Shown here: in pieces, positions 29,042-46,720 of the stretch
How the letters are laid out: each line of letters opens with the position of its first letter
How positions within the stretch are numbered: the stretch's first letter is position 1
Assembly: GCF_030408555.1 (NCBI RefSeq)
Contig: NZ_CP047048.1
Span: 1,240,001 to 1,304,000, forward strand
DNA from: Corynebacterium aurimucosum
GTDB taxonomy: Bacteria > Actinomycetota > Actinomycetes > Mycobacteriales > Mycobacteriaceae
Reading direction: 5' to 3'
Length of the DNA: 64,000 nucleotides
The notes under the pieces: model-generated
What the model was told of the DNA's origin: nothing
What the model saw: the letters and a program-made list of their open reading frames with translations, nothing else
Databases searched by the model: none
Made by a program: the position numbers and the translations under genes

Positions 29042-29117
29042 GCCCCGTTCGTCTAGCGGCCTAGGACGCCGGCCTCTCACGCCGGTAACACGGGTTCAAA
29101 TCCCGTACGGGGTACCA
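29042..29117 (+). tRNA. tRNA-Glu (CTC), left copy
   Basis: Acceptor GCCCCGT/ACGGGGT, anticodon arm CCGGC-CTCTCAC-GCCGG with anticodon CTC, T-loop GGTTCAAATCC. CCA is encoded (29115-29117). An identical tRNA body recurs at 44470, at the other end of the accessory island, where CCA is not encoded. Confidence 0.95.
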
Positions 29118-29157
29118 TTGTGTTCTTACACATACGAGTTAGTGACTTAATAGAGGT

Positions 29158-29186
29158 AGCCAGGTCTTCGGGCCTGGCTTTTCTGT
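29158..29186 (+). terminator. Terminator after tRNA-Glu (left copy)
   Basis: AGCCAGG (29158-29164) pairs with CCTGGCT (29073-29079 + 100, i.e. 29173-29179) around TCTTCGGG, then TTTTCTGTTT. Confidence 0.7.
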
Positions 29187-29219
29187 TTCTGGGGGTAAGT
29201 CCACTCCTGTGACCAGGTT

Positions 29220-29639: not shown

Positions 29640-30410
29640 GCCTTTTCTTATGCCTAAGCTGGGGTTCCATTCGTTGTCGATGTGGGTATCGAATGTGGCA
29701 GGTCGCCCGTCTGGGTGGCCGCGTCGTTTACGTTCTTCTTGTGCCCAGGCTGCGCGTGCGGCTTTTTCTCCTTGGCGTCCGAAGTCTTGTTGCTTGGCTA
29801 ACTCCAGTGGCGCTACCGGGTCTTCGGTGTGGGTGAAAAGCCACCAGTCCATGGTGATGCGCTGATGCTCATCGAACATGCCACGATGATTGCCCGCTAA
29901 GTCTTTGAGCTGTTTGTTGATGCCGCCTTCCAGCAGGTTTGTGGTGGCTTTTAAGTCCTGGGTGAAACCTTCAGGCGGGTCAAGGAAGGTAAATAGTTGT
30001 CCTGTGTGGATGAGTTTTCTAGCCGCTTTAATGCTCGGCGGGCGTTGCGGTGGGTGTACCACCATTTCTGGTTGTCCGAAATCAGTAGTGGACCTTAGAC
30101 CGCTGTCGCCGATAGATGGCCCCTGCGCCCGTTCGAGATGGTAGCTCGCGAGCCCCTTCTGCCGAGGCAATATCATCCACCAGCGTTCCCCACTTGAGAA
30201 CATCAACAACCCAGTCCACGTAACCATCCATGTCCGAGGTGTTATTAATTGCGTGCATGCAGTGGAATATATCCGTGACCCCATGTGGGCGAGCAGAATC
30301 TGCGTCTATCGGAGTAGGTAGGCCATGCGGCTGTCGCGGGAGGTGCGAACATTTGAGCGAGCGGCAGATGAAATGGCCAGCATGAGCTGGAGTGCTGCAA
30401 GGTTTCACAA
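29640..30410 (-). pseudogene. Degenerate IS1249-type transposase
   Basis: The minus-strand frame ending at 29613 encodes the conserved end of IS1249-family transposases (KAARKLIHTGQLFTFLDPP, ATTNLLEGGINKQLKDLAG, HRGMFDEHQR, WWLFTHTEDPVAP). Upstream sequence similar to the middle of the enzyme (MDGYVDWVVDVLKWGTLVDDI) lies in another frame near 30180-30250, and the N-terminal zinc ribbon is missing. Several frameshifts and truncation make it inactive. Its 3' end abuts the right terminal repeat of the 420-bp element. Confidence 0.7.
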
Positions 30411-30590
30411 AACTGCTGGTCAGGGTATAATTGCACCATTAGCATTTGCCCGCTCCCTGTTTCGCGAACTTGTCGAGAAGTATGAGCGGAATGGTTAACG
30501 GGTACTGCTCGACATTAATGTCTGGCGCGGTCAGTAATGTCGGTATCATCTAGAAGATAAGCCACGCTCTGTGGAGGAGACGAACAGTAT

Positions 30591-30653
30591 ATGATTTTAA
30601 GAGCCCAAAGTAAGAAGTTAGCAGTCAAGCTGCCGAAGGTGGTGGCGTGGTAG
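30591..30653 (+). CDS. 20-aa leader peptide before hsdM
   Basis: A 21-codon ORF (MILRAQSKKLAVKLPK...) has the best ribosome site of the region, GTGGAGGAG at 30571-30579, while hsdM has none. Its TAG stop (30651-30653) overlaps the GTG 30653 that begins the conserved HsdM sequence, in a TAGTG junction. Translational coupling of hsdM to this peptide is the simplest reading. Basic composition; no known family. Confidence 0.5.
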   Translation: MILRAQSKKLAVKLPKVVAW

Positions 30654-33102
30654 TGGCTCTTAAGAAATCCGATCTTTATAGCTCCCTCTGGAAGAGTGCC
30701 GATGAGCTGCGTGGCGGCATGGATGCCAGTCAGTACAAGGATTACGTCCTGACACTGCTGTTCGTGAAGTATGTCTCGGATAAGGCGAAGAGCGATCCTT
30801 ACAGCCTCATTGAAGTTCCGGAAGGCGGATCATTTGATGACCTGGTTGCGCTAAAGGGCGCGACGGACATCGGTGAGAAGATGAACATCGCCATCCGTCG
30901 ACTGGCTGAAGCCAATGATCTTCAGGGCGTTATCAACAACGCCGACTTCGATGACCCGAACAAGCTGGGCGAAGGTAAGGCGATGCAGGATCGCCTGACG
31001 AACCTTGTCAGTATTTTTCAGGACGTCGATTTCACCGGTTCTCGTGCCGAGGGCGACGACCTGCTCGGTGATGCCTACGAATATCTGATGCGCCACTTCG
31101 CCACTGAGTCTGGCAAGAGCAAGGGTCAATTCTACACTCCGGCGGAGGTTTCTCGCATCATGGCTCAGGTGCTGGAGATCCCAAAAGATGCCCCTCGCTC
31201 GACGACTGTCTATGACCCGACGTGTGGGTCTGGATCGCTTTTGATTAAGGTGGCTGACGCCGCGCCTAATGGCCTGTCGATTTACGGACAGGAGAAAGAC
31301 AACGCCACCTGGGCACTGTCGCGGATGAACATGATCTTGCACGGCAACGAGACGCATGACATCCGTCAGGGTGACACACTCTCGGATCCGAAATTCCTCA
31401 AGGGCGAACAGCTACAGACCTTTGACTACTTCGTAGCCAACCCGCCGTTCTCAGTGAAGACCTGGAAGAACGGTTTCGACAAGGAATACGATCGGTTCGA
31501 GGGCTTCTCCGAGCCACCAGAGAAGAACGGTGACTATGCCTTCTTGCTTCATATGGTGAAATCCCTGAAGTCTGATGGTCGGGGAGCGGTTATTCTTCCC
31601 CACGGCGTGCTTTTTCGTGGCAACACCGAGGCGCAGATCCGTGAGGAGCTGATCAGGCGTGGTCTAATTAAGGCGATTATTGGGCTGCCGGCCAACCTGT
31701 TTTATGGAACCGGCATCCCGGCCTGCATCATTGTCATCGACAAGAAGAGAGCCACCAACCGGACGGGCATCTTCATGATCGATGCCTCCAAGGGCTTCGA
31801 GAAAGACGGGCCGAAGAACCGTCTGCGTCCTCGGGATATGCGAAAGATCATCGACACCTATCTTGCCGGCAACGACGTCGAGCGCTTTGCCCGGATGGTG
31901 TCGTTGTCGGAAATCTCTGACGCTAAGAACAACTATAACCTCAACATCCCCCGCTACATTGACACGTCTGAACCTGAAGACATTCAGGACCTGGAGGCTC
32001 ACCTTAAGGGCGGGATTCCGAACCGAGATCTGGATGCTCTGGGTGAATACTGGGATGCTTTCCCGAACCTACGTGACGAGCTATTCCGACCTCTCCGCGA
32101 GGGATATTCAGAGCTCACAGTGCAGCCTGATCAGGTCGCCAAGGTGATTGAGGAATCAGAGGATGTTAAGGCTTTTACCTCGACTGTTTCCAAGGCTGTT
32201 GAGGATTGGTGGGGTTCTCACGGATCTCAACTGGAAACGATTGACTCGCAGACCAGGCCGCAACAGCTGATTGAGGATCTTGGTGATGACTTGCTGGAGA
32301 AGTTCCGGGGCCGTCCGCTGATCAGCGAGTACAGCATGTACGAGCAGCTGATGAGCTACTGGAATGACACCATGCACGATGACGTCACACTCATCGTCGG
32401 GTCCGGCTGGGTTGATGCTGCTCAACCGCGTGAAGCTCGGATCACTGGCTATGACAACAAGAAGAAGCCGAAGTACGAGGCTGCTGACCTGGTCTTCGGC
32501 ACGGGTGTCAAGGCCCAGCGTTGGGTAACTGACCTGATTTCACGGCACTGATCATCGATCGATATTTCGCCGAAGAGAAGGCCGAGCTTGATCGTCTTAC
32601 TGCAGAGCAAGAGCGCAGCAGTCTGGAGTTACAGGAGTACATCGACGAGCACGCGGTCGAGGAAGGTCTGCTTTGGGAGGCTGTCAACGACGATGGCGGA
32701 GTGAAGTTGGGCGACGCGAGGAAGCGCCTCAGGGAAGCTAAAGCTGAGGGCGCAGAGGCTGAGAAGGTCTCCGCGCTCAATCATGCCGTGAAACTGTTTG
32801 CTGCTGAGACAGTGGCAAAGAAGGCCGCGAAAAACGCCGCCTTTGAAATCGATCAGCAGAGCTTTCAGGCCTACGAAGGTCTTCGAGATACGGATATACG
32901 GGTGCTAGTCATCGAGGATAAATGGGGTGATTCAATCCGGGAATCGTCAGATGTTGAAGTCGTAAAGACCATTCGGTCTCTCGCATTAAGGCTCAATACA
33001 CTTGGTGAACGTTACTCCGAAACCCTTGAACAAATTATCGGCAAAACTGAAGAAGCTGATCGACGAGTTTGCGTTCATTTGCGGAACATGGGGGTCTTGT
33101 AA
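30653..33102 (+). pseudogene. hsdM: Type I restriction-modification methyltransferase subunit, frameshifted
   Basis: N6-adenine methyltransferase subunit of a type I system. From GTG 30653 the protein begins with the family start (VALKKSDLYSSLWKSADELRGG in part); HsdM N-terminal helical domain, SAM motif DPTCGSGSLL (about 188-197) and catalytic NPPF (about 263) are intact. The frame stops at 32551 after TDLISRH, while the expected continuation LIIDRYFAEEKAELDRL runs in the -1 frame from 32548 to the stop at 33102. One missing base, or -1 slippage near 32545-32550, separates them. Without the roughly 184-residue C-terminal part, contact with HsdS is probably lost. No classical slippery heptamer is seen. 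GTG 30647 is an alternative start. Confidence 0.85.
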
Positions 33103-34349
33103 TGGTTTCTTGTCATGAAGTTCAGAGGATTTCGGATTTTGCAGAAGTTAAGACTGGGCCCTTTGGCTCTGCTCTTCATCAGAAAGACTATAAAGCTACA
33201 GGGACCCCGATAGTCACAGTGGAACACCTCGGAGATAGAGGCATTATTCACCAAAATCTTCCTCTTGTGGGAACAGAAGACTTGAAGCGTCTTTCGACTT
33301 ATAAGTGCCGTGAAGGAGACATCCTTTTCAGCAGGGTCGGGTCAATAGATAGAAACGCGATCGTCAAGGGAGAAGAAGATGGCTGGTTGTTTTCTGGGCG
33401 TCTTTTACGTGTGAGAGTGGACCAGGCAAAAGTAAACTCTGGATATCTCAGTCAAGTTTTTCATACTGAAAATTTCAAAGATAAGGTGCGGTCCGTAGCA
33501 GTAGGCCAAACCATGCCTTCTCTAAATACGCAGATTCTCGGCAGTTTGACTGTCGATTTGCCATCGCTTGATGAACAGAAGATTGTCGCAGGTAGGTTGA
33601 GTTCGGCTGATCAACTCATTGAAACTCTTGAACGCCTCATCTCAAAGAAGCAGGCAATCAAGCAGGGCATGATGCAGGAGCTGCTGACTGGTCGCAAACG
33701 CTTGCCGGGATTTACCAAACCTTGGAAGAATATATCAATTGCGAGACACTCCCATTTGAAGGCAAGAATTGGCTGGCACGGGCTCACGACCGGTGAATAT
33801 CTCCAGTCGGGCAGCTATAAACTAGTCGGTGGCACTGATTTTAAGAATGCTAAAATAGACTGGAATTCAGCCGCTTTTGTGAGTAAATGGCGATTCGATC
33901 AAGATCGCAATATTCAACTTCAACCTGACGATGTCCTTATAACTAAGGACGGAACTATTGGTAAAGTTGCAATTGTTGATAATCTTCCTTTTCCGGCCAC
34001 ATTGAATAGTGGAGTTTTTGTAGTGCGACCGATCCGGGGAACCTACGAATCGAGGTTCTTGTATTGGCTGTTGCGTTCTTCAGTGTTCGAGAACTTCATT
34101 TCATCCCTAAGTGCGGGGTCAACCATTAATCATCTTTACCAAAAGGATCTAAATACTCTTACTTTAGATTTTCCAGAGGACTTTTCTGAACAGCGAGAGA
34201 TTGCGAGTGTACTGGATGACGCTGACTCAGAGATCAGAGCCTTGGAGTCTCGCCTCGAATCAGCTCGCAATATAAAGCAGGGTATGATGCAGGAGCTACT
34301 CACTGGGAGAATCCGCCTTCCCGTAGGGGGCAAGCAAGATGAATATTGA
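33102..34349 (+). CDS. hsdS: Type I restriction-modification specificity subunit
   Basis: 415 residues from ATG 33102, which shares a base with the hsdM stop (TAATG). Two target-recognition domains (about 1-180 and 205-390), each followed by a conserved helix ending in the same core, IKQGMMQELLTGR, at about 188-200 and 396-408. This is the classic two-half HsdS architecture recognising a bipartite DNA site. Notably more AT-rich than hsdM and hsdR, as expected for a module exchanged between strains. The recognition sequence cannot be predicted by eye. Confidence 0.9.
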   Translation: MVSCHEVQRISDFAEVKTGPFGSALHQKDYKATGTPIVTVEHLGDRGIIHQNLPLVGTEDLKRLSTYKCREGDILFSRVGSIDRNAIVKGEEDGWLFSGRLLRVRVDQAKVNSGYLSQVFHTENFKDKVRSVAVGQTMPSLNTQILGSLTVDLPSLDEQKIVAGRLSSADQLIETLERLISKKQAIKQGMMQELLTGRKRLPGFTKPWKNISIARHSHLKARIGWHGLTTGEYLQSGSYKLVGGTDFKNAKIDWNSAAFVSKWRFDQDRNIQLQPDDVLITKDGTIGKVAIVDNLPFPATLNSGVFVVRPIRGTYESRFLYWLLRSSVFENFISSLSAGSTINHLYQKDLNTLTLDFPEDFSEQREIASVLDDADSEIRALESRLESARNIKQGMMQELLTGRIRLPVGGKQDEY

Positions 34350-35052
34350 TTGGGCGCTAAAAGAGCTGCACACCTTCATCTATCTGACTGAGCGTGTTCC
34401 TCACCCAAGTCCTAGCGTCATAGGTAGCTTTCCGCGGGGGTCTAAAGCCGATATTGCTTCTCAGGCGCAAGTAGCCGAGAAGATTATGGATCGGGCTACT
34501 CCTGGTTGGCGCTCTGAGTTGACTGGGATTAAGCCGGGCACTTGGGATCGCCATTACGAGGCTGCAATCAGAGCTCAAGCACAGCTCCAACGGGCTGAAG
34601 AAGTCGCTCAGAATCTGGGAGAAAATGCTCCAGAGCTTTCTGCTGCGGAGCTGCACCCTTGGATCTGGGACGGAGCACAGTCGCTCTGGCAGTCAGGTCA
34701 TTACCGTGAAGCCATCGGTGGTGCGATTCGCAAGCTGAATGCTGAGACGCAGAACAAGATCGGTCGTCGGGATGTTAGCGAAACAAATCTTTTCAAGCAG
34801 GCTTTCTCCACCGATCAGGCAAAGAAAGGAGCGTCTCGGCTACGACGAATGAAAGATGACGGCAGTGACACCTATAACTCGGTTCAGCGTGGCGCTATGA
34901 CATTTGCTGAAGGGGTCTTTGCTGGTATTCGAAACCCTCTTAGCCATGAAGCTGATCAAGAACTTACGGAGCAAGAAGCTCTAGAGTATCTCGCCGCCCT
35001 TAGCGTTTTGGCACGCTGGGTGGACGAATCCACCGTGGAGGCATCATCATGA
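34339..35052 (+). CDS. TIGR02391-family protein inside the hsd operon
   Basis: 237 residues. The C-terminal half carries the TIGR02391 (Hypoth_Ymh) pattern: TNLFKQAFSTDQAKKGASRL, then GAMTFAEGVFAGIRNPLSHE with the conserved RNP..H, and EALEYLAALSVLARWVDE. Such proteins are frequent in defence loci; the RNP-H core is reminiscent of HEPN-like helical RNases, but no activity is established. Start overlaps hsdS by 11 bp and stop overlaps hsdR in an ATGA, so it is an integral part of the operon and may modulate HsdR. Confidence 0.75.
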   Translation: MNIDWALKELHTFIYLTERVPHPSPSVIGSFPRGSKADIASQAQVAEKIMDRATPGWRSELTGIKPGTWDRHYEAAIRAQAQLQRAEEVAQNLGENAPELSAAELHPWIWDGAQSLWQSGHYREAIGGAIRKLNAETQNKIGRRDVSETNLFKQAFSTDQAKKGASRLRRMKDDGSDTYNSVQRGAMTFAEGVFAGIRNPLSHEADQELTEQEALEYLAALSVLARWVDESTVEASS

Positions 35053-38039
35053 GTCTGGTCGGGCAGCGTGAGCGTGTCACGCAGAATCGCGTCGTGGACA
35101 TCCTGTCGAGTCAGCTCGGGTATGAGTATGCCGGGGATTGGAAGGATCGGGCCAACTCCAACGTTGAAGAAGAGCTGTTGCGCCAGAATCTGCTGGCACG
35201 TGGCTACGAGGAGGACTTGGTTCGACGTGCCATCGAGCAGCTTCGCAAGGCTGCTTCGCTGCCGACTGGTGGATCGCTATACGACGTCAACCGCAAGGTC
35301 TACAGCTTGCTGCGCTACGGCGTGAAGGTAAAGCGCAGCGCTTCTGAAAACTTCGAGACCATCTGGATTATCGACTGGGACAACCCGGAGGCTAACCACT
35401 TCGTGGTGGCTGAAGAGGTTTCGATCAAGGGCAGAAACACCAAGCGTCCAGATGTCGTGCTCTACGTCAACGGCATCGCTCTCGGCGTCATCGAACTCAA
35501 GCGTTCCAAGGTCAGCATCGGTGACGGCATCCGACAGCACCTCGGCAACCAGAAGGCAGATTTCGTTCGCCCCTTCTTTACCACTGTTCAACTGCTTTTT
35601 GCCGGTAGTGATGTTGAGGGCCTACGTTACGGCGTGATTGAGACTCCGGAGAAGTACTGGCTGGAGTGGAAAGAGCCAAGCGTGGTTGAGAACCATCTCG
35701 ACTGTGGATTGCTCCAGATGGCGAACAAACAGCGCTTCTTGGAGCTGATTCATGACTTCATCGTCTTCGACTCGGGTGTGAAGAAGACGGCCCGACATAA
35801 CCAGTACTTCGGTGTTAAGGCTGCTCAGGAGCGTATTGCTCGTCGCGAGGGTGGCATTATTTGGCACACTCAGGGGTCAGGCAAGAGCTTGACGATGGTG
35901 TGGCTGGCGAAGTGGATCCGGGAGAACCAGCGCGAAGCGCGTGTCTTGGTGATCACCGACCGGACTGAGCTCGATGAGCAGATCGAGAAGGTCTTTGCCG
36001 GTGTTGACGAGACCATCGAGCGATCGACGTCTGGCGCCGGCATGATCGGCATGCTGGGCCGGAACCAGCCATGGCTGATGTGCTCACTGGTGCACAAGTT
36101 CCGGGGCGATGACGAGAAGGATCAGGGCGACACCGAGGATTTCGTGCGTCAGCTCAAGAAACCTCTCCTTGAAGGGTTCAGCCCCAAGGGCAATCTCTTC
36201 GTCTTTGTCGATGAAGCTCACCGCACCCAGAGTGGCAAACTCCATAAGGCGATGAAGGAGCTGTTGCCGAACGCGATGTTCATCGGCTTTACCGGCACTC
36301 CGCTTCTCAAGAAGGACAAGGCCAAAAGTATCGAGACCTTCGGGTCGTACATCCACACCTACAAGTTCGATGAGGCCGTTGATGACGGCGTGGTGCTGGA
36401 TCTGCGTTATGAGGCTCGGGATATTGACCAGCGGCTTATGAGCCCGGAGCGGGTCGATGAGTGGTTCAAGATCCACACCCAGGGCATGACCGACCTAACG
36501 AAGCACCAGCTGAAGAAGCGCTGGGCGACGATCAAGGAAGTTGAGTCGGCTGAGCCGCGAGCTCGGCAGATCGCCGCTGACATCCTGATGGATATGGCTA
36601 GAATGCCTCGCCTGATGGATGGTCGAGGTAATGCCATGTTGGTGTGTTCGAGTGTCTACCAGGCCTGCAAGTTCTATGACATCTTCAGCCGTAGTGAATT
36701 GGCCGGTAAGGTCGCGATCATCACGATCTATGAGCCGAACGCATCCCAGATCTCGAAGGAAGACTCTGGGGCTGGCAAGAACGAGGAGATCGTCAAGTAC
36801 GACGTCTACCGTCGGATGCTCGCTGACTACTTCCAGACCAATGCTGATGATGCCGTTAAGCGGATTGACGAGTTCGAGAAGGACGTCAAGGAGAAGTTCA
36901 TCAATCATCCGGGTCAGATGAGGCTGATGATCGTGGTCGACAAACTGCTGACCGGCTTTGATGCTCCGAGTGCGACTTATCTTTACATCGATAAGAACAT
37001 GCAAGATCATGGTCTTTTCCAGGCTATTTGTCGCGTGAACCGGCTTGACGGTGATGACAAGAAATACGGCTACATCGTCGACTACCGCGACCTGTTCAAA
37101 TCTCTGGAGGATGCGGTTTCTGACTACACCTCCGAAGCTTTCGCCGACTACGACGAGGAAGATGTGGAAGGCCTACTCAAGGATCGTATTGAGCAGGAGC
37201 GTCAAGACCTGGACGAGGCTCTTGAAATGGTGCGTGCTCTGTGTGAGCCGGTGGCTCCCCCTAAGGGCACGTTGCAGTACCAGCACTATTTCTGCGCGAT
37301 GGAAAGCGGCAGCGCAGAGCAACTCAAGGCTAACGAACCTAAGAGAGGGGATCTGTACAAGGGCGTGACAAGTCTGGTACACGCCTATGCCAACTTGGCC
37401 AACCGTATGAGTGAGGCTGGATACTCGGAAAGTGAAGCTGCATCAATCAAGTCTCAAGTGAAACACTTTGTTGATGTGCGCGACGAGGTGAAGCTTGGAG
37501 CCGGTGAGAATGTTGACCTCAAGCAGTTTGAGGCCGGCATGCGTTCTCTACTGGATACTTATATCCAGGCAGACGCATCGCGAAACCTTGCGACTTTTGA
37601 CCAAGGGCTCGTGCAGCTCATTGTCGAACATGGAGTTGGGGCTTTAGAGAAACTTCCGGAGAACATCCGAAAGACCCCGGAGGCTGCGGCTGAAACCATC
37701 GTCAATAACGTCCGTAAGACAATCGTTGACGAGCAGGCCATGAACCCGAAGTATTACGAAACTATGTCTACTTTGCTCGATGCACTGATTGAGCAGCGTC
37801 GTGAGGCTGTGATCGACTACGAGGAGTATCTGCTTAAGCTGGTTGAGTTAACCCAGCGTCTCGCCAAGGGCGAATCTGATAGGAAATTCCCTGACTGGGC
37901 CAAGACGCCTGCTCGACGGGCCCTGATCGACTTCGCGTGGCCGAAGAATATCGAGGTCGACGTCGAGCGGATTTACGCCACGATTCAGCGCAACAAGGAG
38001 CATGGCTGGTCTGGAGACAAGAAAAGCAGAAGTCTTTGA
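35049..38039 (+). CDS. hsdR: Type I restriction-modification endonuclease/translocase subunit
   Basis: 996 residues, full length. N-terminal PD-(D/E)xK nuclease core RPDVVLYVNG...GVIELKRS (about 133-154), superfamily 2 motor with Walker A TQGSGKSLTMVW (about 273-284), VDEAHRTQSGKL (about 386), TGTPLL (about 415), and a late motif LLTGFDAPSATYLYID followed by QAICRVNR, then a long helical C-terminus. Translocates and cuts DNA when bound to an M2S complex; given the hsdM frameshift the complex may not assemble. ATG 35049 overlaps the TIGR02391 stop. Confidence 0.93.
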   Translation: MSLVGQRERVTQNRVVDILSSQLGYEYAGDWKDRANSNVEEELLRQNLLARGYEEDLVRRAIEQLRKAASLPTGGSLYDVNRKVYSLLRYGVKVKRSASENFETIWIIDWDNPEANHFVVAEEVSIKGRNTKRPDVVLYVNGIALGVIELKRSKVSIGDGIRQHLGNQKADFVRPFFTTVQLLFAGSDVEGLRYGVIETPEKYWLEWKEPSVVENHLDCGLLQMANKQRFLELIHDFIVFDSGVKKTARHNQYFGVKAAQERIARREGGIIWHTQGSGKSLTMVWLAKWIRENQREARVLVITDRTELDEQIEKVFAGVDETIERSTSGAGMIGMLGRNQPWLMCSLVHKFRGDDEKDQGDTEDFVRQLKKPLLEGFSPKGNLFVFVDEAHRTQSGKLHKAMKELLPNAMFIGFTGTPLLKKDKAKSIETFGSYIHTYKFDEAVDDGVVLDLRYEARDIDQRLMSPERVDEWFKIHTQGMTDLTKHQLKKRWATIKEVESAEPRARQIAADILMDMARMPRLMDGRGNAMLVCSSVYQACKFYDIFSRSELAGKVAIITIYEPNASQISKEDSGAGKNEEIVKYDVYRRMLADYFQTNADDAVKRIDEFEKDVKEKFINHPGQMRLMIVVDKLLTGFDAPSATYLYIDKNMQDHGLFQAICRVNRLDGDDKKYGYIVDYRDLFKSLEDAVSDYTSEAFADYDEEDVEGLLKDRIEQERQDLDEALEMVRALCEPVAPPKGTLQYQHYFCAMESGSAEQLKANEPKRGDLYKGVTSLVHAYANLANRMSEAGYSESEAASIKSQVKHFVDVRDEVKLGAGENVDLKQFEAGMRSLLDTYIQADASRNLATFDQGLVQLIVEHGVGALEKLPENIRKTPEAAAETIVNNVRKTIVDEQAMNPKYYETMSTLLDALIEQRREAVIDYEEYLLKLVELTQRLAKGESDRKFPDWAKTPARRALIDFAWPKNIEVDVERIYATIQRNKEHGWSGDKKSRSL

Positions 38040-38134
38040 TGCGTACTCTTGCACTCAACTTCCCTGGGCTCTTAGATAAAACGCAGATGGAAAGTCTGCT
38101 CGATCAACTGAAAAAGCATGATGAATTCCGCTAG
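38039..38134 (+). CDS. 31-aa ORF between hsdR and the peptidase gene
   Basis: MRTLALNFPGLLDKTQMESL then a short charged tail. Its ATG overlaps the hsdR stop (TGATG) and its end overlaps the start of the YgjP gene, so it could be translated by coupling and relay ribosomes. No homology recognised; it may be only a bridge. Confidence 0.3.
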   Translation: MRTLALNFPGLLDKTQMESLLDQLKKHDEFR

Positions 38135-38845
38135 TTCTTACCTCACTGTTTCCGGCTTTGATGTTGAGCTGGTCTACAAAGACATCAAGAACATGCATTT
38201 GTCGGTGTATCCGCCGATGGGTCGTGTTCGGGTAGCTGCGCCCGCTCGGTTAGATGAGGACACCATTCGTCGGGCTATCATACAACGCCTGCCATGGATT
38301 CGGCGGGAACGAAATCGTCTCCAGAACGCTAACCGGCAATCCAAGCGACAGATGGTCTCCGGGGAGAGCCACTATGTCTGGGGTAAGCGATATCGTCTGG
38401 ATGTTTCGAGGCACAGCGGGAACCCAAAGGTTGTTCTCTCAGGAGATATTCTCTGGCTCTATTCCCCGGAAGGGTCGACGCCAGAGGATAGGTTTGGCAT
38501 TCTTGATCGCTGGTACCGCCGGGAACTTAAGGCAGTACTGCCGGCTCTGGTCGAGAAGTGGGAGTCTGTCATGGGTGTGAAAGCTAATCGGGTCACAGTT
38601 AAGCGGATGAAGACTAAGTGGGGTTCATGTAACCCTGATAGCCGGAACATCTGGATCAACCCGGAGCTAGCAAAAAAAATCCTCGGAGTCTGGAGTACTT
38701 AGTGGTTCATGAGCTGGCGCACCTGGTAGAGCGGAGTCACAACTCGAGATTTGTGGGGGTGATGGATCGACACCTCCCGGACTGGCCTACGCGGCGAGAC
38801 GAACTCAATGGGGCACCCCTAGCCGCAGAAGAATGGTCGGAATGA
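38118..38845 (+). pseudogene. YgjP-like (DUF45/M48) zinc metallopeptidase with frameshift in an A8 tract
   Basis: The first frame gives 194 residues (from ATG 38118 or 38121) with the YgjP-type N-terminal beta domain and VKRMKTKWGSCNPDSRNIWIN, then stops at 38702. The missing end lies in the -1 frame directly after a run of eight A (38672-38679): PRSLEYLVVHELAHLVERSH and further WPTRRDELN, to TGA 38845. The HELAH zinc motif is thus only made if one A is regained or the ribosome/polymerase slips. YgjP-type peptidases often accompany hsdR. Could be decay, a sequencing error, phase variation or slippage-controlled expression. Confidence 0.8.
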
Positions 38846-38885
38846 ACCCTCGTCAATTTCGACAAATCAAGAGAGGAGAAAGCAA

Positions 38886-39857
38886 ATGAGGGGCGATGCC
38901 ATCTTGAATGTTATAGGTCCAACATTAAAACAGAACACTAGGTTTTCCGACCTCTTTTATGATTCGGTCGACATCGATATCAACCCTAGAACTGAATGCA
39001 AACTATCCGTTTTACGGATAGAAAGTGGCGAATTTATCCTAGACGAAATGTTCGACTATCTGTCGAAGGCTAGCATTGGCTACGTCCTATCAAGGAGAGA
39101 ATACGAAAGGTATCTTGCTGATTTGGCCATCGATCCGAATAACGCCATGGCCTGGGCGGAGGATATTAAAGCAAAGTTTCAAGAGCCGAACGCTACAAAT
39201 GGCGAAGGCGGCGAAATGATCCTGTATGCACTACTTGAAGAGGTTGTCGGTGCTCCAAAGATTCTAAGTAAAATGGAAATCAAAACCAATAACAAAATGC
39301 CAGTATTTGGCGCGGATGGATTACACCTACTCAGAGTGAGAGATGATGAATACCAACTAGTGTTTGGCGAGTCAAAAATGCATGGAGATCTTGGTGGTGC
39401 AATTTCGAAAGCCTTTGAATCAATGAGTAGTGTGAAGGATACTTCATTTAGAGACGATACGTCACTGGTATCCAGTCAACTAATGAAAGAGGCTGTTAAT
39501 GATGAACAGCTCAAAGCGCTAGAAGCTATTCTTATTCCAGAACCGGGTGCGACTCAGCGTATTAAGCTCGTCAATTCTTTTGGTGTTCTAGTGACCTTTG
39601 ATCTTGACGTCGACGACTTCGATCTTTCTCTACATGACGATGACCAAATCGAGACCGAATTTAGAATCCGGGCGCAAAATGCGGTACAGGCAAAAACCAA
39701 TGATATTCAGAAGCAGATTCGGAAGTATCAGCTTGGTGCAACAAATTTCCATATATTTGCTATGCCCTTCTTGAAAAGAACAGTCGGAGCAGAGACGCAC
39801 GGTGTCGACAAGGTGCGTAAAGATCTTCAGCAACGACTTCGGTGGGGGAAGGGATGA
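38886..39857 (+). CDS. hamA: Hachiman anti-phage defence nuclease HamA (DUF1837)
   Basis: 323 residues. The DUF1837 family, defined as HamA of the Hachiman system. A PD-(D/E)xK-type active site is visible: Glu110 in GEGGEMILYALLEE, Asp144 in FGADGLHLL and the E162-S-K164 strand LVFGESKMH. Known role: nuclease held inactive by HamB and released when HamB senses damaged or abnormal DNA, degrading DNA in the infected cell. AGAGGAGAAAG at 38871-38881 sets ATG 38886. It lies 40 bp after the peptidase gene and overlaps hamB. More AT-rich than the backbone, indicating acquisition. Confidence 0.88.
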   Translation: MRGDAILNVIGPTLKQNTRFSDLFYDSVDIDINPRTECKLSVLRIESGEFILDEMFDYLSKASIGYVLSRREYERYLADLAIDPNNAMAWAEDIKAKFQEPNATNGEGGEMILYALLEEVVGAPKILSKMEIKTNNKMPVFGADGLHLLRVRDDEYQLVFGESKMHGDLGGAISKAFESMSSVKDTSFRDDTSLVSSQLMKEAVNDEQLKALEAILIPEPGATQRIKLVNSFGVLVTFDLDVDDFDLSLHDDDQIETEFRIRAQNAVQAKTNDIQKQIRKYQLGATNFHIFAMPFLKRTVGAETHGVDKVRKDLQQRLRWGKG

Positions 39858-42514
39858 TGTCGAAAGATACTGAAACTGTCGCTACGAGACTTGGTAGAAT
39901 CATTCTTGCGAGGCCCGACTACGTTGACTTGGTTCAACGAGCAGAAGCCATCGTTGCGGAGTATTTTCTTACTCATAAAATCACTGATGAGCCTTTGCAT
40001 CGCCTCATTGCACCTGGTCTACGGTTCGCGGATATCCTCTCGCATTCAGACAAGGCCGAGCATCGTGAACGTGCATACGCCTTAATTGCAATGTTTCAAG
40101 AACTTAAAGAACAGCAACAACTAGATGCTGAATCACTCCAACGGCTAGAAGCATTTTCCATTGCTGTGTTCTCGGTTCTGGGAAATTTTCCAGGACTTCG
40201 CAAGCTAGAGGAGTCTGATGAGAGCGACGGTTACCAAGTTCCAGCTGAGCGGCTATTTGCTCGAGGCTTCAAAGAATTTCACCAAAGAACTTCTGACAGG
40301 TCGAGCGTACTAACGGATGCTCAATACGAAATTGCAACCGCTATGGAGTGTGTGGATTTCTACAGTTTCTCTGGGCCAACGTCGCTTGGAAAATCATTTG
40401 TAATCAAGAATTTCTTGAAAGTAGAGGTGCAAAAACCACAGCTCGCAGATGCTTGTGTGATCTTCTTGGTCCCCACAAATGCGCTTGTCGCCCAAACGGC
40501 AAACGACTTGAGAAAACTACTGGAGGCTCTTCCTACGGTAAACGTAGCCATATATCCAGATCAGCCAGAGATAATGAAAAGGCTTTTTGCGACCACCGTA
40601 TTTGTGTTTACTCCAGAACGGCTGATTCGCTTCCTCAATGCGCCGAATCGCTCCATCAAGCTACTTATTGTTGACGAGGCCCATAAAATCGTAGCGGAGA
40701 ATGACTCGCGCAGCCCCCTCTTCTACTATGCAATCGATGAAACCGTTCGAAGCTTTGCGACTAAACTAATCTTCTCTTCGCCGAGCTTGAGCAACCCAGA
40801 GCTCTTTCTTGAGCTTTTCGGAAAATCTACTGGCGGAAGCATGGTTGTGCGAGAGCGGACAGTCACCCAGCAAAGATTCTATGTAGATTTCATTGATAGA
40901 GAGGCGTCGTATTTCTCGTCGGACTTAGAATCTGAACGGATACTCGTTGAGTCAGTAGATCAAATGTCTTGGGCTCCTGACGAGGCAGTAAAGTTTTGGG
41001 CGAATGGGGCTAAGTCACTCGTTTACGCAAATACTCCCTCTAAAGTGGTCAATCATGCCCTCTCATTCGCTGGGGAAGAGAATGTAGAAATCTCTCAACA
41101 GGTCCATCGACTTATTGAACGGATTGGTAGAGAGATTCATCCACAATACTACCTCATTGATGTACTTAAGCGAGGCGTTGCTTTTCATCATGGGAAAATG
41201 CCGGTTGCGATCCGAGAGGACATTGAAAGCGTATTTAAGAGTGAAACATCTGGGATCGACTTTCTATTCTGCACGTCGACGCTCCTTGAAGGAGTGAACC
41301 TTCCTGCAAAGAACATATTTATCCTCACTGATAAATACGGGGGAGGTCGTAGTTCTTTCGGAAAGCTAGACTTCGAGAACTTGGCAGGCCGTGCAGGTAG
41401 GTTAACTGAAGACTTTCAAGGCAATGTCATTTGCATCAGGGCAGATGACGCGACATGGAAGGATCCCGACCTGCAGATTCCGATAACATCCCCGATCGAG
41501 GTAACGAGCTTTATGGTACCTCCCCCGGAGTCGAAGGGAAGAAAAAATTATACCGATATCGCTAAAGTCCTTCAGGGGAGATCGGTCAGTGGGACCAGGA
41601 GCGATCGGCAATCCGCCGAGAAATATGCAACGATTTTACTGGCTCAAACTCAAAAGAGTCATGCCTCGCTTCTTTCGCAGAACTTCAATGAAAAGGTGAA
41701 AGATGGGTCTAAACTTCTCAAAGAGGTCAACGATTCACTTGAAGTGAGTGTAGATACTGTACGACGTTCTCCCGAAATTGAACCTCTAACTCAGGACCGC
41801 GTATATCGACTTTTAAAGAATTCTGGGGATCCGTACGTTATAAGTTCTGTTGAGGAAATATCTTTTGATAGCATCTTAAGGATGCTTGACACTCTGAATA
41901 GAGTGTACGACTGGAAAGACAAAGAGTCTTCAGGTAGTCGCGACCTATTTCGGAAGAATGCAGATGACGCAGAACGTGTCAGGCGGCTTAAGTACTGGGC
42001 AAGCTTAACTCACCATTGGATAAAAGGTCTTCCGGTAAGCGCATTGATTTCTCGGTCAATTGCTTACGCAGAGAAGTCAGGCGTAATTTATGGCGCGGGA
42101 GGTGGGAATCCCTACCAAAGATCTGTTTTTGATCCGAATTCTAAAATTCATATCAATCACATTATTGACGAAACCCTCAGCAATCTTGAGTATGGTGTAG
42201 GATTTCGAATTCCTATATATTTGAAGAATTACTACGACATTTGTGTCAGTCTATTGGGCGAGGAGAATGCCGGACTTGATCTTTCTGTCTTGATTGAGTT
42301 TGGCACCACTAGCCCGGTAGGGATAGAGCTTCAGCAAATCGGATACACGAGAGACTCTGCATCTGAACTTTGGAGGAAAGGACCTCAACACCTTCAGTTG
42401 TCTGTAGAGGGAAAAATTGCGCATCTAAATGTGGAGGCGATCACTCTCGATCAGAATCTAAGTGACGAGCTCCGAGAGGAGACGATTCACTTACTGGGGA
42501 CAAGGGTGTCTTAG
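39854..42514 (+). CDS. hamB: Hachiman defence helicase HamB
   Basis: About 886 residues from ATG 39854 (ATG 39857 also possible), overlapping the hamA stop. Superfamily 2 DEAD/DEAH helicase: Walker A SGPTSLGKSFVIK (about 172-184), LIVDEAHKIV (about 270), a Ski2-like LLEGVNLPAKNIFI (about 477-490) and motif VI ENLAGRAGRL (about 507-516). In Hachiman, HamB binds and translocates on DNA and controls HamA. Pairing, order and overlap match the known two-gene system, and both partners look complete, unlike hsdM and the peptidase upstream. Confidence 0.88.
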   Translation: MMSKDTETVATRLGRIILARPDYVDLVQRAEAIVAEYFLTHKITDEPLHRLIAPGLRFADILSHSDKAEHRERAYALIAMFQELKEQQQLDAESLQRLEAFSIAVFSVLGNFPGLRKLEESDESDGYQVPAERLFARGFKEFHQRTSDRSSVLTDAQYEIATAMECVDFYSFSGPTSLGKSFVIKNFLKVEVQKPQLADACVIFLVPTNALVAQTANDLRKLLEALPTVNVAIYPDQPEIMKRLFATTVFVFTPERLIRFLNAPNRSIKLLIVDEAHKIVAENDSRSPLFYYAIDETVRSFATKLIFSSPSLSNPELFLELFGKSTGGSMVVRERTVTQQRFYVDFIDREASYFSSDLESERILVESVDQMSWAPDEAVKFWANGAKSLVYANTPSKVVNHALSFAGEENVEISQQVHRLIERIGREIHPQYYLIDVLKRGVAFHHGKMPVAIREDIESVFKSETSGIDFLFCTSTLLEGVNLPAKNIFILTDKYGGGRSSFGKLDFENLAGRAGRLTEDFQGNVICIRADDATWKDPDLQIPITSPIEVTSFMVPPPESKGRKNYTDIAKVLQGRSVSGTRSDRQSAEKYATILLAQTQKSHASLLSQNFNEKVKDGSKLLKEVNDSLEVSVDTVRRSPEIEPLTQDRVYRLLKNSGDPYVISSVEEISFDSILRMLDTLNRVYDWKDKESSGSRDLFRKNADDAERVRRLKYWASLTHHWIKGLPVSALISRSIAYAEKSGVIYGAGGGNPYQRSVFDPNSKIHINHIIDETLSNLEYGVGFRIPIYLKNYYDICVSLLGEENAGLDLSVLIEFGTTSPVGIELQQIGYTRDSASELWRKGPQHLQLSVEGKIAHLNVEAITLDQNLSDELREETIHLLGTRVS

Positions 42515-42781
42515 GACTGGTCTCTTCCGGATTGATAGCGATTCTGTCGAACTATAGTGATCGGGTCCGGAGCCTCTCCCTCGCTTGTTCCAGCACGCGA
42601 CTCGATCGACCAACTGCTAAAGTCCCATCTGAGACCTGTGCGACCCGTCTCGTCGTGTAAATAGCGCCCGCTTTGCTCGCTTCACGATGGAGCTGTCTCC
42701 AAAGTGGAGTAATCTCCCCTCGGACACCGCCTGGATTTTCGACTTAGATTTTATCTCATTAACCCTGGTAGATTAGTAGTT
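42515..42781. other. Non-coding gap after hamB
   Basis: About 270 bp with no convincing gene, tRNA or terminator on either strand. It contains the transition from the AT-rich defence operon to sequence of backbone character and is the likeliest place for the right junction of the defence module. Confidence 0.4.
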
Positions 42782-43111
42782 TTGAAGTGTTCGACGGCGC
42801 TTGGCAGTACCTCGTATATGTTGCGTGATGATTGGTGTCATATGCGAGTTTTGGTACCGGTGTTCTGGGAACTCGGTACTGTCGTGTTCCGGGTAGTTGG
42901 ACCTGCTGTCAAACCCCACATCGCTCACGCAGAGGTCTTCGTGTCCACTAATGATGTCCTGGTGGACCCTTCCCTCACGCAGCAGCTTGCCGACGCCCTC
43001 TCGGCCGCGCCCATCACCATCCACGGCGCTGGACATTTCCTTGAGAGTGACGGCTATACCGAGTTTCCACAGCTGGGGGATCGCATAGCGCAATGGCTGC
43101 GCAGCCTATAG
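42782..43111 (+). pseudogene. Truncated RBBP9/YdeN-family serine hydrolase (C-terminal fragment)
   Basis: From about 42920 the frame encodes the end of a small alpha/beta hydrolase: AEVFVSTNDVLVDPSLTQQL, ITIHGAGHFLESDGYTEFPQL (His of the catalytic triad in GAGHFL). The nucleophile elbow and the whole N-terminal half are absent, and the residues before 42920 do not resemble the family. The 5' part was probably removed when the defence module arrived. Confidence 0.7.
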
Positions 43112-43435
43112 GCCCTCAGTCATGGCTTTGAGCGCCTTCACGTGCTGCACGTAAGCTTGTGCGCCTGCCTCAGTAAGCGTGACCCACACGGTGTCCTTGG
43201 CGCGGGTAGAACCGTACTCTCGGGCGCGGCTAATATAGCCGCAGCCTTCGAGGTGCTTTAGCTGCTTGGAAAGCGTATCGGCGGGGAGCTCGGTCAACTC
43301 GGCGAGCGTACTGTACTTCATTTGCCGGTCTCCGGTGGCGCCAGCGGAGTAGAGTGTAGCGCAGATCTTGAGTCGTTTAATCGGGTGGATAACTGGATCC
43401 AGCTCAGGGGATTGGTTGGGTGCGTCCTTAGGCAT
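43106..43435 (-). CDS. Winged-helix transcriptional regulator (MarR/ArsR-like)
   Basis: 109 residues. A single winged-helix DNA-binding domain: IKRLKICATLYSAGA, then MKYSTLAELTELPADTLSKQLKHLEGCGYISR (recognition helix in TLSKQLKHLE) and a wing rich in Arg/Thr. Overlaps the membrane-protein gene by 8 bp, so the pair forms one operon read from the promoter at about 43865. The tandem palindromes at that promoter are a natural autoregulatory operator. Signal unknown. Its stop lies 6 bp inside the hydrolase remnant's end. Confidence 0.8.
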   Translation of the reverse strand: MPKDAPNQSPELDPVIHPIKRLKICATLYSAGATGDRQMKYSTLAELTELPADTLSKQLKHLEGCGYISRAREYGSTRAKDTVWVTLTEAGAQAYVQHVKALKAMTEGL

Positions 43436-43832
43436 TTGATCCCTTTATGGCCGCGTTGCGGTTCTCGTAGAGCATCCAAGCCATCGCTGCGGAAACGACG
43501 ACCCCGCTGGTGATCATCCATGGCCATGTATCAGGTGTCGGCGTGGTGGAGAAAATCATTGCGGCGGGAAGCAGTACGCGTGACCACGTGGCGCGATCGT
43601 TCCTTGGCCCCATGTTGGGATTGGGGCGAACAAAAGGGTTCGCGAGTTTGTCCTTGAGGAGGTAGCCGAGAATGAAGGTCGGTAGGAGGATTGCGAGGGT
43701 GTACCACCACGACAGCTTAGAGAATGCGAGGCTACTGCCGATGCCGAGCGCTACAAGTGCTACCGCCCACCCGCTCTGCTTCCAAGCTGTGCGCTGTTGA
43801 ACCTCTCCAATGACTTTAAGGTCGCTGTTCAT
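43428..43832 (-). CDS. Small four-helix membrane protein
   Basis: 134 residues with four predicted membrane helices in two pairs (about 22-60 and 85-120) and short charged ends. Not recognised as a named family. ATG 43832 is preceded by AAAGGAGG (minus strand, 43841-43848). First gene of a two-gene operon with the winged-helix regulator; such pairs often respond to membrane or drug stress, but that is a guess. Confidence 0.7.
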   Translation of the reverse strand: MNSDLKVIGEVQQRTAWKQSGWAVALVALGIGSSLAFSKLSWWYTLAILLPTFILGYLLKDKLANPFVRPNPNMGPRNDRATWSRVLLPAAMIFSTTPTPDTWPWMITSGVVVSAAMAWMLYENRNAAIKGSNA

Positions 43833-43841
43833 GATGTGCCT

Positions 43842-43894
43842 CCTTTACTTGCATCTAGTGCAAGTGTAACGCTTGCACTAGATGCAAGTAAAGG
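43842..43894. promoter_or_regulatory. Tandem palindromic operator / 23-bp inverted repeat
   Basis: A perfect 23-bp inverted repeat (43842-43864 with 43872-43894) around the 7-base loop TGTAACG. Each arm is itself a dyad: CTTGCATCTAGTGCAAG (43848-43864) and CTTGCACTAGATGCAAG (43872-43888), so two near-identical operator sites stand 24 bp apart centre to centre. A TACACT -10 for the minus-strand operon lies between them, and the operon's ribosome site overlaps the left arm. Confidence 0.75.
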
Positions 43895-44469
43895 GGCGTG
43901 GCTTCTCGTGACATCTGAGTGGTCTGGTTTTACCCCATACCGGTGTGCATCTTCGGCGAGGTGGACGGGAGGGGCGGTGGAGTACCAGGGGGTGGACCAG
44001 TGGCCAATTGGTCTAAGTCCTACCGGTATGCCTTTTCTGGCCATACACTGCAGGTACAACGCATTCCCGACAGAAAGGAGAGCGGATGGCGGAAGTTGAA
44101 AATCATCACTATCGCCGACGCGACTCTAGCAGATAATACAAGGCGGCATCGCCATAATCCACAACTTCTTAAAGCCAACACTCGAGCGAAGTAGGAGCCT
44201 TGCATCGCATGCTGTTAGCGCACGTGTCCTCCCGAACCTCCAGCGATGACTAACTAGTGCTCCGGCCCCAGCAGCCAACGGCACGCCAGCGGAATAACCA
44301 CTGATTCGATCCGCACCTAGGCCTTGAGAGTCGAAGTTTACATCGCAGCCATAAGTGGCAACGAGGTTCGGGATTTTATCTGTGTAAAAAGGGTCCGTTA
44401 CCTGCCGATTTGTGCAATCTTTCGGGGATCCTATAGTGTTTAGCAAGTCCGAAACGGACAGCTAAGCGA
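43895..44469. other. Non-coding stretch before the second tRNA-Glu
   Basis: About 575 bp without a supportable gene. Short frames exist on both strands (for example 44126-44446 minus) but lack ribosome sites and recognisable similarity. Probably island debris. Confidence 0.4.
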
Positions 44470-44542
44470 GCCCCGTTCGTCTAGCGGCCTAGGACGCCGG
44501 CCTCTCACGCCGGTAACACGGGTTCAAATCCCGTACGGGGTA
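44470..44542 (+). tRNA. tRNA-Glu (CTC), right copy
   Basis: Identical in its 73-nt body to the copy at 29042, with anticodon CTC. After the discriminator A the sequence reads CAA, so CCA is not encoded here, unlike the left copy. A terminator follows within 6 nt. Confidence 0.95.
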
Positions 44543-44547
44543 CAAAT

Positions 44548-44588
44548 AAAGAGGGCGACAAGCTATATAGCTGTCGCCCTCTTTCCTG
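44548..44588. terminator. Bidirectional terminator after tRNA-Glu (right copy)
   Basis: A 13-bp stem, AAAGAGGGCGACA (44548-44560) pairing with TGTCGCCCTCTTT (44572-44584). A-tract on one side and T-tract on the other suit both the tRNA and the converging lipoprotein gene. Confidence 0.85.
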
Positions 44589-44616
44589 ATCGGGTTATGG
44601 GTTAGCGGTCTGGAGT

Positions 44617-45324
44617 CTAGACAATGAGGACTTCAGCGCTATTACCGCCCGTGCAGCGAATCACCTCGTGCTCATCAATGTTGCACGTCAATGAGTAGTT
44701 CTGCTGTGTGACCGAGCTGTTGACGGTTACCTGTGCGGGGATATAGGCGCGGAGGTCATCCTGGGAGCTTGGGGCTAAGGTCATCAAGCGGCCGGCTGTG
44801 GAGCGCGCAAAATCGCAACTAGTGTTTGCGCCGGCCATGACGAAGGCGATGTTATAGCCATCGCCCATCTGGCACACCGTGGCGGGTGTGCCGTGAACGT
44901 TGACTGCTGCGCCGTTGGCTTCGCCTTGGGGAAGCTGTCCGGAGAGGCTATTGTAGGTGGACATCTTTGCAGCCTGAGCGGTCTGGTGCTGGCCTGCGCC
45001 TGGTTGGGCCCCTTGCACACTCTGCGCTTGAGTATCCGGCTGTTGAGGCTGGCCCCCAGGCTGATCGGCTGCGGTGCCGGGCAATGTCGGTTCGGGGCCG
45101 GATGGGGCTCCTTCGTCGGCGGAGTTGGGAACGTGAAGTTCAGCGTCATCATTGAGCGGCTGAAAGGCTGGGTATGTGTTCTCGAAAGTTGGCTCACCCG
45201 ATACTTCGCCCGGGCCTGACGATGCTGCCATGTCGGATGACGTGGAGCATCCAACCGTTAAAACACCGGCGGTGGCTATGGCTGCAAAAGCTGCGACGGG
45301 TCGGAGGGTGCGCGTGGAAGTCAT
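44617..45324 (-). CDS. Putative lipoprotein, unknown function
   Basis: 235 residues from ATG 45324; TAGGGT (45332-45337, minus strand) is 7 nt upstream, a leaderless start. Lipobox VLTVGC (Cys26). A disordered Pro/Gln/Gly/Ala-rich segment (about 75-125) precedes a compact C-terminal domain with three conserved-looking Cys residues (VCQMGDGYN, TSCDFARS, LTCNIDEHEVIRC). Resembles small secreted corynebacterial and mycobacterial lipoproteins of unknown role. The further upstream frame to 45393 overlaps a hairpin and is rejected. Confidence 0.7.
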   Translation of the reverse strand: MTSTRTLRPVAAFAAIATAGVLTVGCSTSSDMAASSGPGEVSGEPTFENTYPAFQPLNDDAELHVPNSADEGAPSGPEPTLPGTAADQPGGQPQQPDTQAQSVQGAQPGAGQHQTAQAAKMSTYNSLSGQLPQGEANGAAVNVHGTPATVCQMGDGYNIAFVMAGANTSCDFARSTAGRLMTLAPSSQDDLRAYIPAQVTVNSSVTQQNYSLTCNIDEHEVIRCTGGNSAEVLIV

Positions 45325-45898: not shown

Positions 45899-46720
45899 AT
45901 GATGAATAAGTCTCCTCAGCGTCGCCTTTCGCTTTTTGCTTCCGGCCTTGGTTCTGTGGTTGGTGCATGCTCGCTAGCCATTGCTCTTGCTACCCCCGCA
46001 ACGGCTGCCGAGGGTGTGCCGGTGAGGCAGGGGCAAAAGGTTGCTGCTGCTGATGGCACCTTGTGCAGTGTCGGTTATGTTGAGGCTAGCCGGGCGTGGA
46101 CCTCGGCCCACTGCGGTCTCAACGGGGAGCAGATGTATAACGGGGAGCAGATGTATAACGAAGCGGGCCAGCACGTAGGAACCTTGCGTTGGTTCAAGCC
46201 TTCTGGGGCGGCAGGGCATGACTTGGCCTATATTCAGTTCGCCGGCGGAACGTACTCGGCCGGAAACCCCCTGACAGGGGATGGCATGGCGCCGGTCCCA
46301 GGCGAAGGAGCAACTGTGTGCTTCGACGGGCAGGCCACGTCGCGTCAATGCGGTACTGCGGTGCGGGGGCCAGGCCTCTTTCCTGGAATGAACTATGCGG
46401 TCGACGTGTCGCTGGTGCCAGGGGATAGCGGTGGAGCAGTCTCCGTTCCTGGGCAGCCAGGTGTGGTGGGTATTTACCAGGGGATTACCCAGACCAATCG
46501 AGAAGGCCGGACGGTAATTTTCTCAAACTATGCACGGATGCCACACGCGGATGAACTGGCGCGCCTGCCGCACCAAGGTTGGGTGCCGCGACGTCCCAAC
46601 CGGGAACCGGGAAATCCAATCCGGGTGGCGCAGGAAAAGGGTGAGGCGTTGTCCTCGACAAGCAGCGCGGGCCCAGAAGGACTGCGTGGCCTCGCGATGT
46701 ATTTTGGTTTGAGTATTTAG
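45899..46720 (+). CDS. Secreted trypsin-like serine protease
   Basis: 273 residues. Signal peptide ending ATPATAAEG (about residue 37). Chymotrypsin-fold triad: His in WTSAHC (about 71), Asp in GHDLAYIQF (about 105) and Ser in VPGDSGGAV (about 179); Cys pairs fit extracellular disulfides. A tandem 18-bp duplication (46121-46156) repeats NGEQMY directly after the catalytic His. TAGAGT lies 6 nt before ATG 45899. The C-terminal tail is Pro/Arg then Ser-rich. Target protein unknown; could process surface proteins. Confidence 0.82.
   Translation: MMNKSPQRRLSLFASGLGSVVGACSLAIALATPATAAEGVPVRQGQKVAAADGTLCSVGYVEASRAWTSAHCGLNGEQMYNGEQMYNEAGQHVGTLRWFKPSGAAGHDLAYIQFAGGTYSAGNPLTGDGMAPVPGEGATVCFDGQATSRQCGTAVRGPGLFPGMNYAVDVSLVPGDSGGAVSVPGQPGVVGIYQGITQTNREGRTVIFSNYARMPHADELARLPHQGWVPRRPNREPGNPIRVAQEKGEALSSTSSAGPEGLRGLAMYFGLSI

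Follow-up and report, generated by a model that had tools for sequence, protein, structure and literature searches.

How does an antiphage system come to lie directly behind a type I restriction-modification (RM) operon, and does it belong to that operon? The question is raised by a 64,000-nucleotide stretch of the Corynebacterium aurimucosum genome (NZ_CP047048.1, positions 1,240,001 to 1,304,000 of the forward strand; hereafter the window, whose numbering we use unless another locus is named). Here a hamA-hamB gene pair of the Hachiman type (hamAB) follows hsdM, hsdS, hsdR, and ygjP, the last encoding a YgjP-type metallopeptidase (Table 1). In our reading, which we consider quite probable, the Hachiman pair is of canonical type and forms exchangeable cargo in a place with sharp, shared edges, behind an RM operon that has decayed in this genome; the mechanism of exchange is inferred. 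What would matter then is the slot, a place with defined edges where one immune system gives way to an unrelated one behind the same RM operon. Such a slot would make content change in defence islands testable at base resolution.

A probable cargo place behind ygjP

Matches to the ygjP product of a related locus, that of Corynebacterium sp. J010B-136 (below, J010B-136), were found at E ≤ 1e-30 in nine of 242 Corynebacterium genomes. In six loci (the window, J010B-136, and those of genomes G146, G051, G026, and G199), ygjP is 88–100% identical and lies after hsdR (in G199, hsdM lies beyond the contig edge). What follows on the same strand varies. It is Hachiman in the window and J010B-136, and in G146 a CD-NTase with a Cap15-type 2TM effector, that is, a cyclic-oligonucleotide-based antiphage signaling system (CBASS; PADLOC, 1.3e-135 and 4.8e-87). 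The other three loci carry Gabija, of three PADLOC types (G051, 1.1e-134 and 1.1e-84; G026, 3.8e-164 and 3.1e-130; G199, 7.9e-234 and 4.1e-189). In the remaining three genomes of the nine, ygjP has 67% identity and one internal stop in G166 (no defence match in the single open reading frame [ORF] scanned), is only partial and without an hsdR match in G140, and is 36% identical in G066.

On the left, the six loci align through ygjP to its last Trp codon, after which similarity is lost, save for the two loci with Hachiman. On the right, each of the other five loci was aligned locally to the window, and the best alignments (41–339 bp) all end at 42838, the last base of a conserved noncoding sequence. 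The hamAB pair lies between the 3′ end of ygjP and this right end, behind the series hsdM-hsdS-insert-hsdR-ygjP, and exchange would most simply proceed by homologous recombination in the shared flanks. We recognized no description of a defence slot behind an RM metallopeptidase among the open-licence papers that word searches listed, and none of those listed for Hachiman together with Corynebacterium deals with that subject, as judged by titles.

Two controls bear on whether such neighbors are expected anyway. Upstream of hsdM, the only match among 10 ORFs from eight loci was a weak OLD-like one (6e-15, G811). The second control took 12 loci behind hsdR in other type I RM operons of the genus, and 10 ORFs from nine of them were scanned (three were left out as apparent ORF repeats, and in one locus the scanned ORF is 0.95 kb away). 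A complete two-gene system was seen once (Dodola, G043), besides a single match at 7.5e-18 and two weaker ones. For a full two-gene system, 6/6 versus 1/9 gives p = 0.0014 in a Fisher test, or 0.003 with five independent cargoes; this is a post hoc test, with control loci drawn from genomes chosen for carrying the Hypoth_Ymh gene described below.

More distant relatives (an order-wide search, with 12 of 397 genomes, plus actinobacterial plasmids) bring the set to 23 loci, 22 with hsdR-ygjP. A PADLOC match at E ≤ 1e-15 is found on the same strand in the first ORFs downstream of ygjP in 13 of these 22, the six close loci included. In the distant loci these matches are IetA-like (G826), PDC-M54A (G906), Ppl (G752, 0.9 kb away), and pPIWI-RE (G749) genes and, on plasmids, SIR2-HerA (Mycolicibacterium poriferae) and a TIR/ThsB protein (Rhodococcus p52 pDF03). 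In G700, Gabija lies 1.4 kb downstream, behind an opposite-strand ORF, and at one further locus, on a Rhodococcus aetherivorans plasmid, an OLD/AriA-like gene lies behind ygjP on the opposite strand. By annotation only, no defence pair stands directly behind the peptidase gene in two Pseudomonas and two Escherichia coli plasmid loci. A plasmid search with the island gave eight records, none covering 80%.

Several points weigh against exchangeable cargo. The slot rests on six close loci, with one genome per species, and two of them share their cargo, so that there are five independent cargoes. No defence gene was recognized behind ygjP in eight of the 22 loci (one to two ORFs scanned in six, annotation only in two). 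Defence neighbors are not confined to the ygjP side, because on a Pseudomonas juntendi plasmid a gene pair annotated as AAA ATPase and UvrD lies upstream of hsdM. The nine control loci behind hsdR were not empty, given the Dodola system and the single match at 7.5e-18. The right end is also present in two genomes at places without this RM operon (G121, G033), and the breaks in the RM operon (see below) could still be local sequencing errors.

A 31-base pattern taken from the right end (three mismatches or fewer) occurs in 12 of the 242 Corynebacterium genomes, once in each, and the same pattern read backwards in none of the 242. PADLOC-supported defence genes lie upstream of it in nine of the 12, namely the six slot loci plus G033, G080, and G121; the ORFs near the right end of G056, G140, and G184 fell outside the scan. 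In G033 these are another type I RM system, Gabija, and Dodola, and in G080 Gabija, next to a copy of the same hsdM that is interrupted. In G121 (L101 9535–17530) a Wadjet operon (JetABCD) between two tRNA-Gln/tRNA-Glu pairs ends ~130 bp before the right end. The sequence can serve as a search handle for further defence cargo in Corynebacterium.

It is tempting to go further and see mobile defence units with a cargo port, with a fixed ygjP edge and the ~75-bp right end as recombination site, in which systems would be swapped like cassettes and cargo would outlive a decayed RM chassis. We regard this as possible and hold it only tentatively. If true, the cargo would comprise Hachiman, CBASS, and Gabija of several types, with Wadjet or Dodola beside the same right end at other places. 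The right end may be a recombination site, or it may be a small RNA with a terminator; in several loci an inverted repeat with a run of T comes after it and looks terminator-like by eye. A comparison of the left part with the right end showed no terminal repeats (a single inverted match of 9 bases), and no 10-mers were found common to the port and the right part. We rejected a coding remnant (variable columns are spread evenly over codon positions: 25, 25, and 26) and an Rfam family (only three tRNAs reach gathering scores in 28800–44700).

Table 1. Features of the variable region, by position in the window
Feature	Position	Strand	Evidence or remark
tRNA-Glu, left of variable region	29042–29117	+	
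hsdM, frame broken: ORF 30647–32551, remainder in other frame to 33102	30647–33102	+	PADLOC MTase_I in two pieces; J010B-136 hsdM in two frames
hsdS, type I specificity subunit	33069–34349	+	PF01420 4.5e-28; PADLOC Specificity_I 1.3e-87
Hypoth_Ymh (TIGR02391-like) gene between hsdS and hsdR	34339–35052	+	PF09509 7.4e-33
hsdR, restriction subunit of the type I system (996 aa), frame broken at 3′ end	35049–38039	+	1028 aa in relatives
ygjP, YgjP-type metallopeptidase, frame broken: ORF 38118–38702, HELAH remainder in other frame	38118–38845	+	PF01863 3e-39 (first piece)
hamA, HamA (DUF1837) nuclease, 323 aa	38886–39857	+	PF08878 6.3e-48; PADLOC HamA1 2.7e-69; D-GExK
hamB, Ski2-like helicase HamB1, 890 aa	39842–42514	+	PADLOC HamB1 2e-208; PDB 9wh1_B 1.9e-88
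Conserved noncoding right end of unit	42763–42838	+	42838 is where similarity to each of the five comparison loci ends
Second, identical tRNA-Glu, right of variable region	44470–44543	+	

Island, sequencing error, or operon

An initial annotation of this DNA had placed the pair in a Corynebacterium island, and this holds: the genes of the variable region between two tRNA-Glu genes have 44–55% G+C, compared with 60–61% in the flanks. Within 28914–44543, tRNA-Gln and tRNA-Glu are followed by an identical tRNA-Glu 15.4 kb on. The same tRNA-Gln/tRNA-Glu place with a further tRNA-Glu on the same contig is found in 37 of 41 sampled genomes of the genus, 0.2–24.5 kb apart (pairs matched by hand from a match list). 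The interval is likely an integration hotspot. Because the pair is so common in the genus, we rejected the idea that the identical tRNA-Glu copies are duplicates made by island insertion.

Could this be simply an ordinary defence island, in which chance insertions have piled up between two tRNA-Glu genes and there is no special slot? The variable length of the interval would fit, as would the presence of insertion sequence remnants and the general tendency of defence systems to cluster (as given in an excerpt of PMC10121019). We nevertheless find it rather unlikely, given that loci with different cargo have edges that agree within bases, and that no neighboring tRNA-Glu was seen in the stretches examined for G051, G026, and G199, at least three of the six.

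Some further features of the interval and its surroundings should be noted. Left of hsdM (29220–30408) are degenerate minus-strand ORFs that resemble a transposase, together with a perfect inverted repeat of 25 bp; J010B-136 has what appears by eye to be an intact 407-aa relative left of its hsdM (L005 567–1790, minus strand). An almost perfect inverted repeat of 26 bp, with a single-nucleotide loop (43842–43894), stands beside two small minus-strand genes (43106–43435 and 43428–43832). In G146, an ORF that looks by eye like a recombinase and has no match in PADLOC (L048 17982–19331) lies between tRNA-Glu and the RM operon and is a candidate mobility gene of the tRNA-Glu hotspot. The flank gene at 45899–46720, also present in the near relative G015, looks by eye like a secreted trypsin-like serine protease (signal-like start, GDSGG).

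The RM operon itself looks broken in this genome, judged from sequence, with Hachiman left whole. Its hsdS is a single ORF (426 aa). J010B-136 proteins are split over two window frames at ~32.54 kb in hsdM, at ~38.03 kb in the 3′ end of hsdR, and at ~38.67 kb in ygjP, and J010B-136 hamA (98%) and hamB (97%) each match the window in one piece. The ygjP ORF stops ahead of its zinc-binding motif, with HELAH in the second frame. J010B-136, G146, G051, and G026 have whole copies of hsdM (818–819 aa), hsdR (1028 aa), and ygjP (242–248 aa); the window lacks the whole set of hsdM, hsdS, and hsdR of a functional type I RM system. General sequencing error appears unlikely as the cause, because all 71 matching flank ORFs are unbroken: each G015 ORF of this set (≥150 aa, matching the window at >60% identity, overlapping shadow ORFs included) matches in one frame over 98–100% of its length.

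It might still be asked whether these particular breaks arose as errors in sequencing or assembly, so that the strain in fact has a working RM operon. One break adjoins a run of A, and the breaks are read from the assembly sequence. On the other side, such errors would have to fall in three genes within 7.5 kb while sparing hamA, hamB, and every one of the 71 flank ORFs, and we therefore consider this explanation improbable.

The initial annotation had gone further, joining the RM genes, the peptidase gene, and Hachiman into one layered defence operon; co-regulation might then mean, for example, that restriction cuts feed Hachiman activation. It had the pair in the same direction, 40 bp after the peptidase gene. 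Direction and close spacing are as described, but the 40 bp are counted from the other-frame stop at 38845, whereas the peptidase ORF ends at 38702. The arrangement is also preserved in J010B-136 with whole frames, and a simple consensus scan found no promoter-like site between ygjP and hamA. Read-through transcription into hamAB is thus possible, given same direction, close spacing, and the outcome of that scan.

The single operon lacks support on other grounds. Besides the three broken genes, the two parts differ in history. DNA identity to J010B-136 is 98.6% for hamA and 97.9% for hamB (synonymous divergence, dS, 0.04 and 0.05), compared with 83.7% for hsdR, 85.1% for ygjP, and 85.6% for hsdM (dS 1.04, 0.72, and 0.99, over ungapped parts); the gltX-tRNA stretch beside the island has ~75% identity. 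Dense mismatches end at 38699, inside ygjP, and resume from ~42.6 kb. Because divergence between these points is so low relative to the RM part, the comparison indicates two histories at one locus, with a more recent common source for the hamAB block.

Linkage is also rare. PF08878 was found in four of the 242 Corynebacterium genomes and in eight of 394 genomes drawn evenly from the class (own genome included; seven over the cut-off), 11 genomes in total. Anywhere in these 11, an HSDR_N match occurs in six and a YgjP match in 10, but HamA stands beside hsdR and ygjP in only two, the window and J010B-136 (distances taken from listed coordinates, with part of the assemblies fragmented). G242 has a HamA match below the cut-off and, ~11 kb away, a YgjP match, on a contig without hsdR. 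A contig search with the window HamA matched one locus, J010B-136. Adding that relatives hold other defence systems at the same place, we find a co-regulated layered operon highly improbable. Neighboring defence genes should not be read as one layered operon, and here the first layer looks broken.

The hamAB pair

The identification of the pair as Hachiman, also made in the initial annotation, was confirmed. Both genes are open and overlap as described (Table 1). The 890-aa length of hamB is counted from the first GTG; in-frame ATG codons occur at 39854 and 39857, and the hamA stop codon is 39855–39857. HamA matches PF08878 with 164 bits (cut-off 25), and the PADLOC HamB1 match covers residues 27–875. 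No NCBIfam model matched HamA. For HamB, all NCBIfam models fall far under their cut-offs, the best being Hel308-type (1.9e-12 vs. 2e-208 for HamB1), so that an unrelated Ski2-like family is not a better fit.

The nuclease residues named for HamA (Glu110, Asp144, Glu162, and Lys164) are all in place and invariant in 30 of 30 aligned sequences (the window copy and 29 chosen among 120 listed of 235 found). The D-GExK motif (D144, G161, E162, K164) is intact. The claim that all helicase motifs are present in HamB stood in part: a pattern search located GPTSLGKS (motif I, starting at residue 178) and DEAH (motif II, starting at residue 278) and gave no match for motif VI, and G516–R520 (GRAGR) is invariant across a 28-sequence alignment; these were the motifs examined. 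By its sequence, the pair is a real and complete Hachiman system of canonical type, ordinary as a system.

In PDB 9wh1, 9whk, and 9whu, chain B carries the label of a helicase domain of DNA polymerase theta, and chain A the name of a HamA C-terminal-domain protein. The chain B label appears mistaken, because chain B of 9wh1 is the best PDB match of HamB (Table 1) and is partnered by a HamA-type chain. HamA alone had a best PDB match at 0.0067, which is not a HamA.

AbpAB and HamMAB (excerpts of PMC10732053 and PMC12799240) have a HamA domain and a Ski2-like helicase, as in the window; AbpA, however, has an N-terminal Cap4 nuclease and HamMAB a trypsin-like protease fused to HamA. The window HamA is neither AbpA-like nor protease-fused, because PF08878 is its sole Pfam domain. 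The peptidase at this locus, unlike the HamMAB protease, belongs to a separate broken YgjP-type gene. It is hardly credible that the pair is such a variant rather than canonical Hachiman: the partner of 9wh1_B is indeed a longer HamA C-terminal-domain protein, but the 323-aa HamA shows the HamA domain (PF08878) alone, D-GExK is kept although protease fusions have lost it in virtually all cases (excerpt of PMC12799240), and we rejected either identity since profile and residue results contradict it.

Comparison with known systems

The characterized system nearest in plan is HamAB of E. coli ECOR31 (PMC12278908, in excerpt; PDB 8VX9), with the same hamA-hamB order, a HamA domain with D-E(x)K, and a Ski2-like HamB. 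The sequences are distant: the window HamB matches the ECOR31 HamB chain at just 1.2e-7, and a profile built on the family of the window HamA, used with E values up to 1, missed ECOR31 HamA. In ECOR31, HamB restrains the nuclease HamA during survey of intact DNA, and at damage helicase activity activates HamA, so that phage and host DNA are degraded (PMC12278908, in excerpt). By family membership and analogy with characterized Hachiman systems, the window HamB, in a complex with HamA that its N-terminal helical bundle would mediate, would survey DNA while keeping HamA (D-GExK) in check; damaged DNA, or DNA in phage replication, would lead it to activate HamA, with degradation of phage and host DNA.

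A second place in the operon, between hsdS and hsdR, also holds varying genes. In the window this is the Hypoth_Ymh gene, with an RNPLSH stretch (R-x4-H) that we take to be a HEPN ribonuclease motif. The place is empty in J010B-136 and G026, is occupied by Ymh relatives in eight other loci (G146, G051, G730, G826, G868, G752, G749, and pDF03), and in others holds a DUF4357 or GIY-YIG-type gene. Ymh occurs in 32 of the 242 Corynebacterium genomes, directly before an HSDR_N gene in three of the 32; no mention of TIGR02391 was found in the open-licence literature searched. One E. coli plasmid has a DUF4433-macro pair between hsdS and hsdR, and E. coli prrC presumably occupies a like place. This slot is already in print: E. 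coli DarTG2 lies between hsdS and hsdR, a place proposed as a recombination hotspot (excerpt of PMC12255303).

That work describes the E. coli RRDM island (RptR-RMS-DarTG2-M48, with the RptR repressor gene upstream), the main text mentioning neither Hachiman nor Corynebacterium. Its gene order, hsdM-hsdS-insert-hsdR-metallopeptidase, is common to the window and its relatives. The RRDM insert is DarTG2, however, and that of the window Hypoth_Ymh, which sets the window apart from RRDM as defined by DarTG2. The window and its relatives have a further, separate slot behind the peptidase gene (with Hachiman, CBASS, or Gabija), whereas the excerpted text describes no second slot for RRDM. The E. coli defence hotspots (PMC10121019, in excerpt) are likewise fixed places with varying defence cargo, among them a type I RM locus at which further systems occasionally occur. 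Those hotspots are defined by core genes and mobile elements, whereas one edge of the slot in the window lies inside the last codons of a gene of the RM operon.

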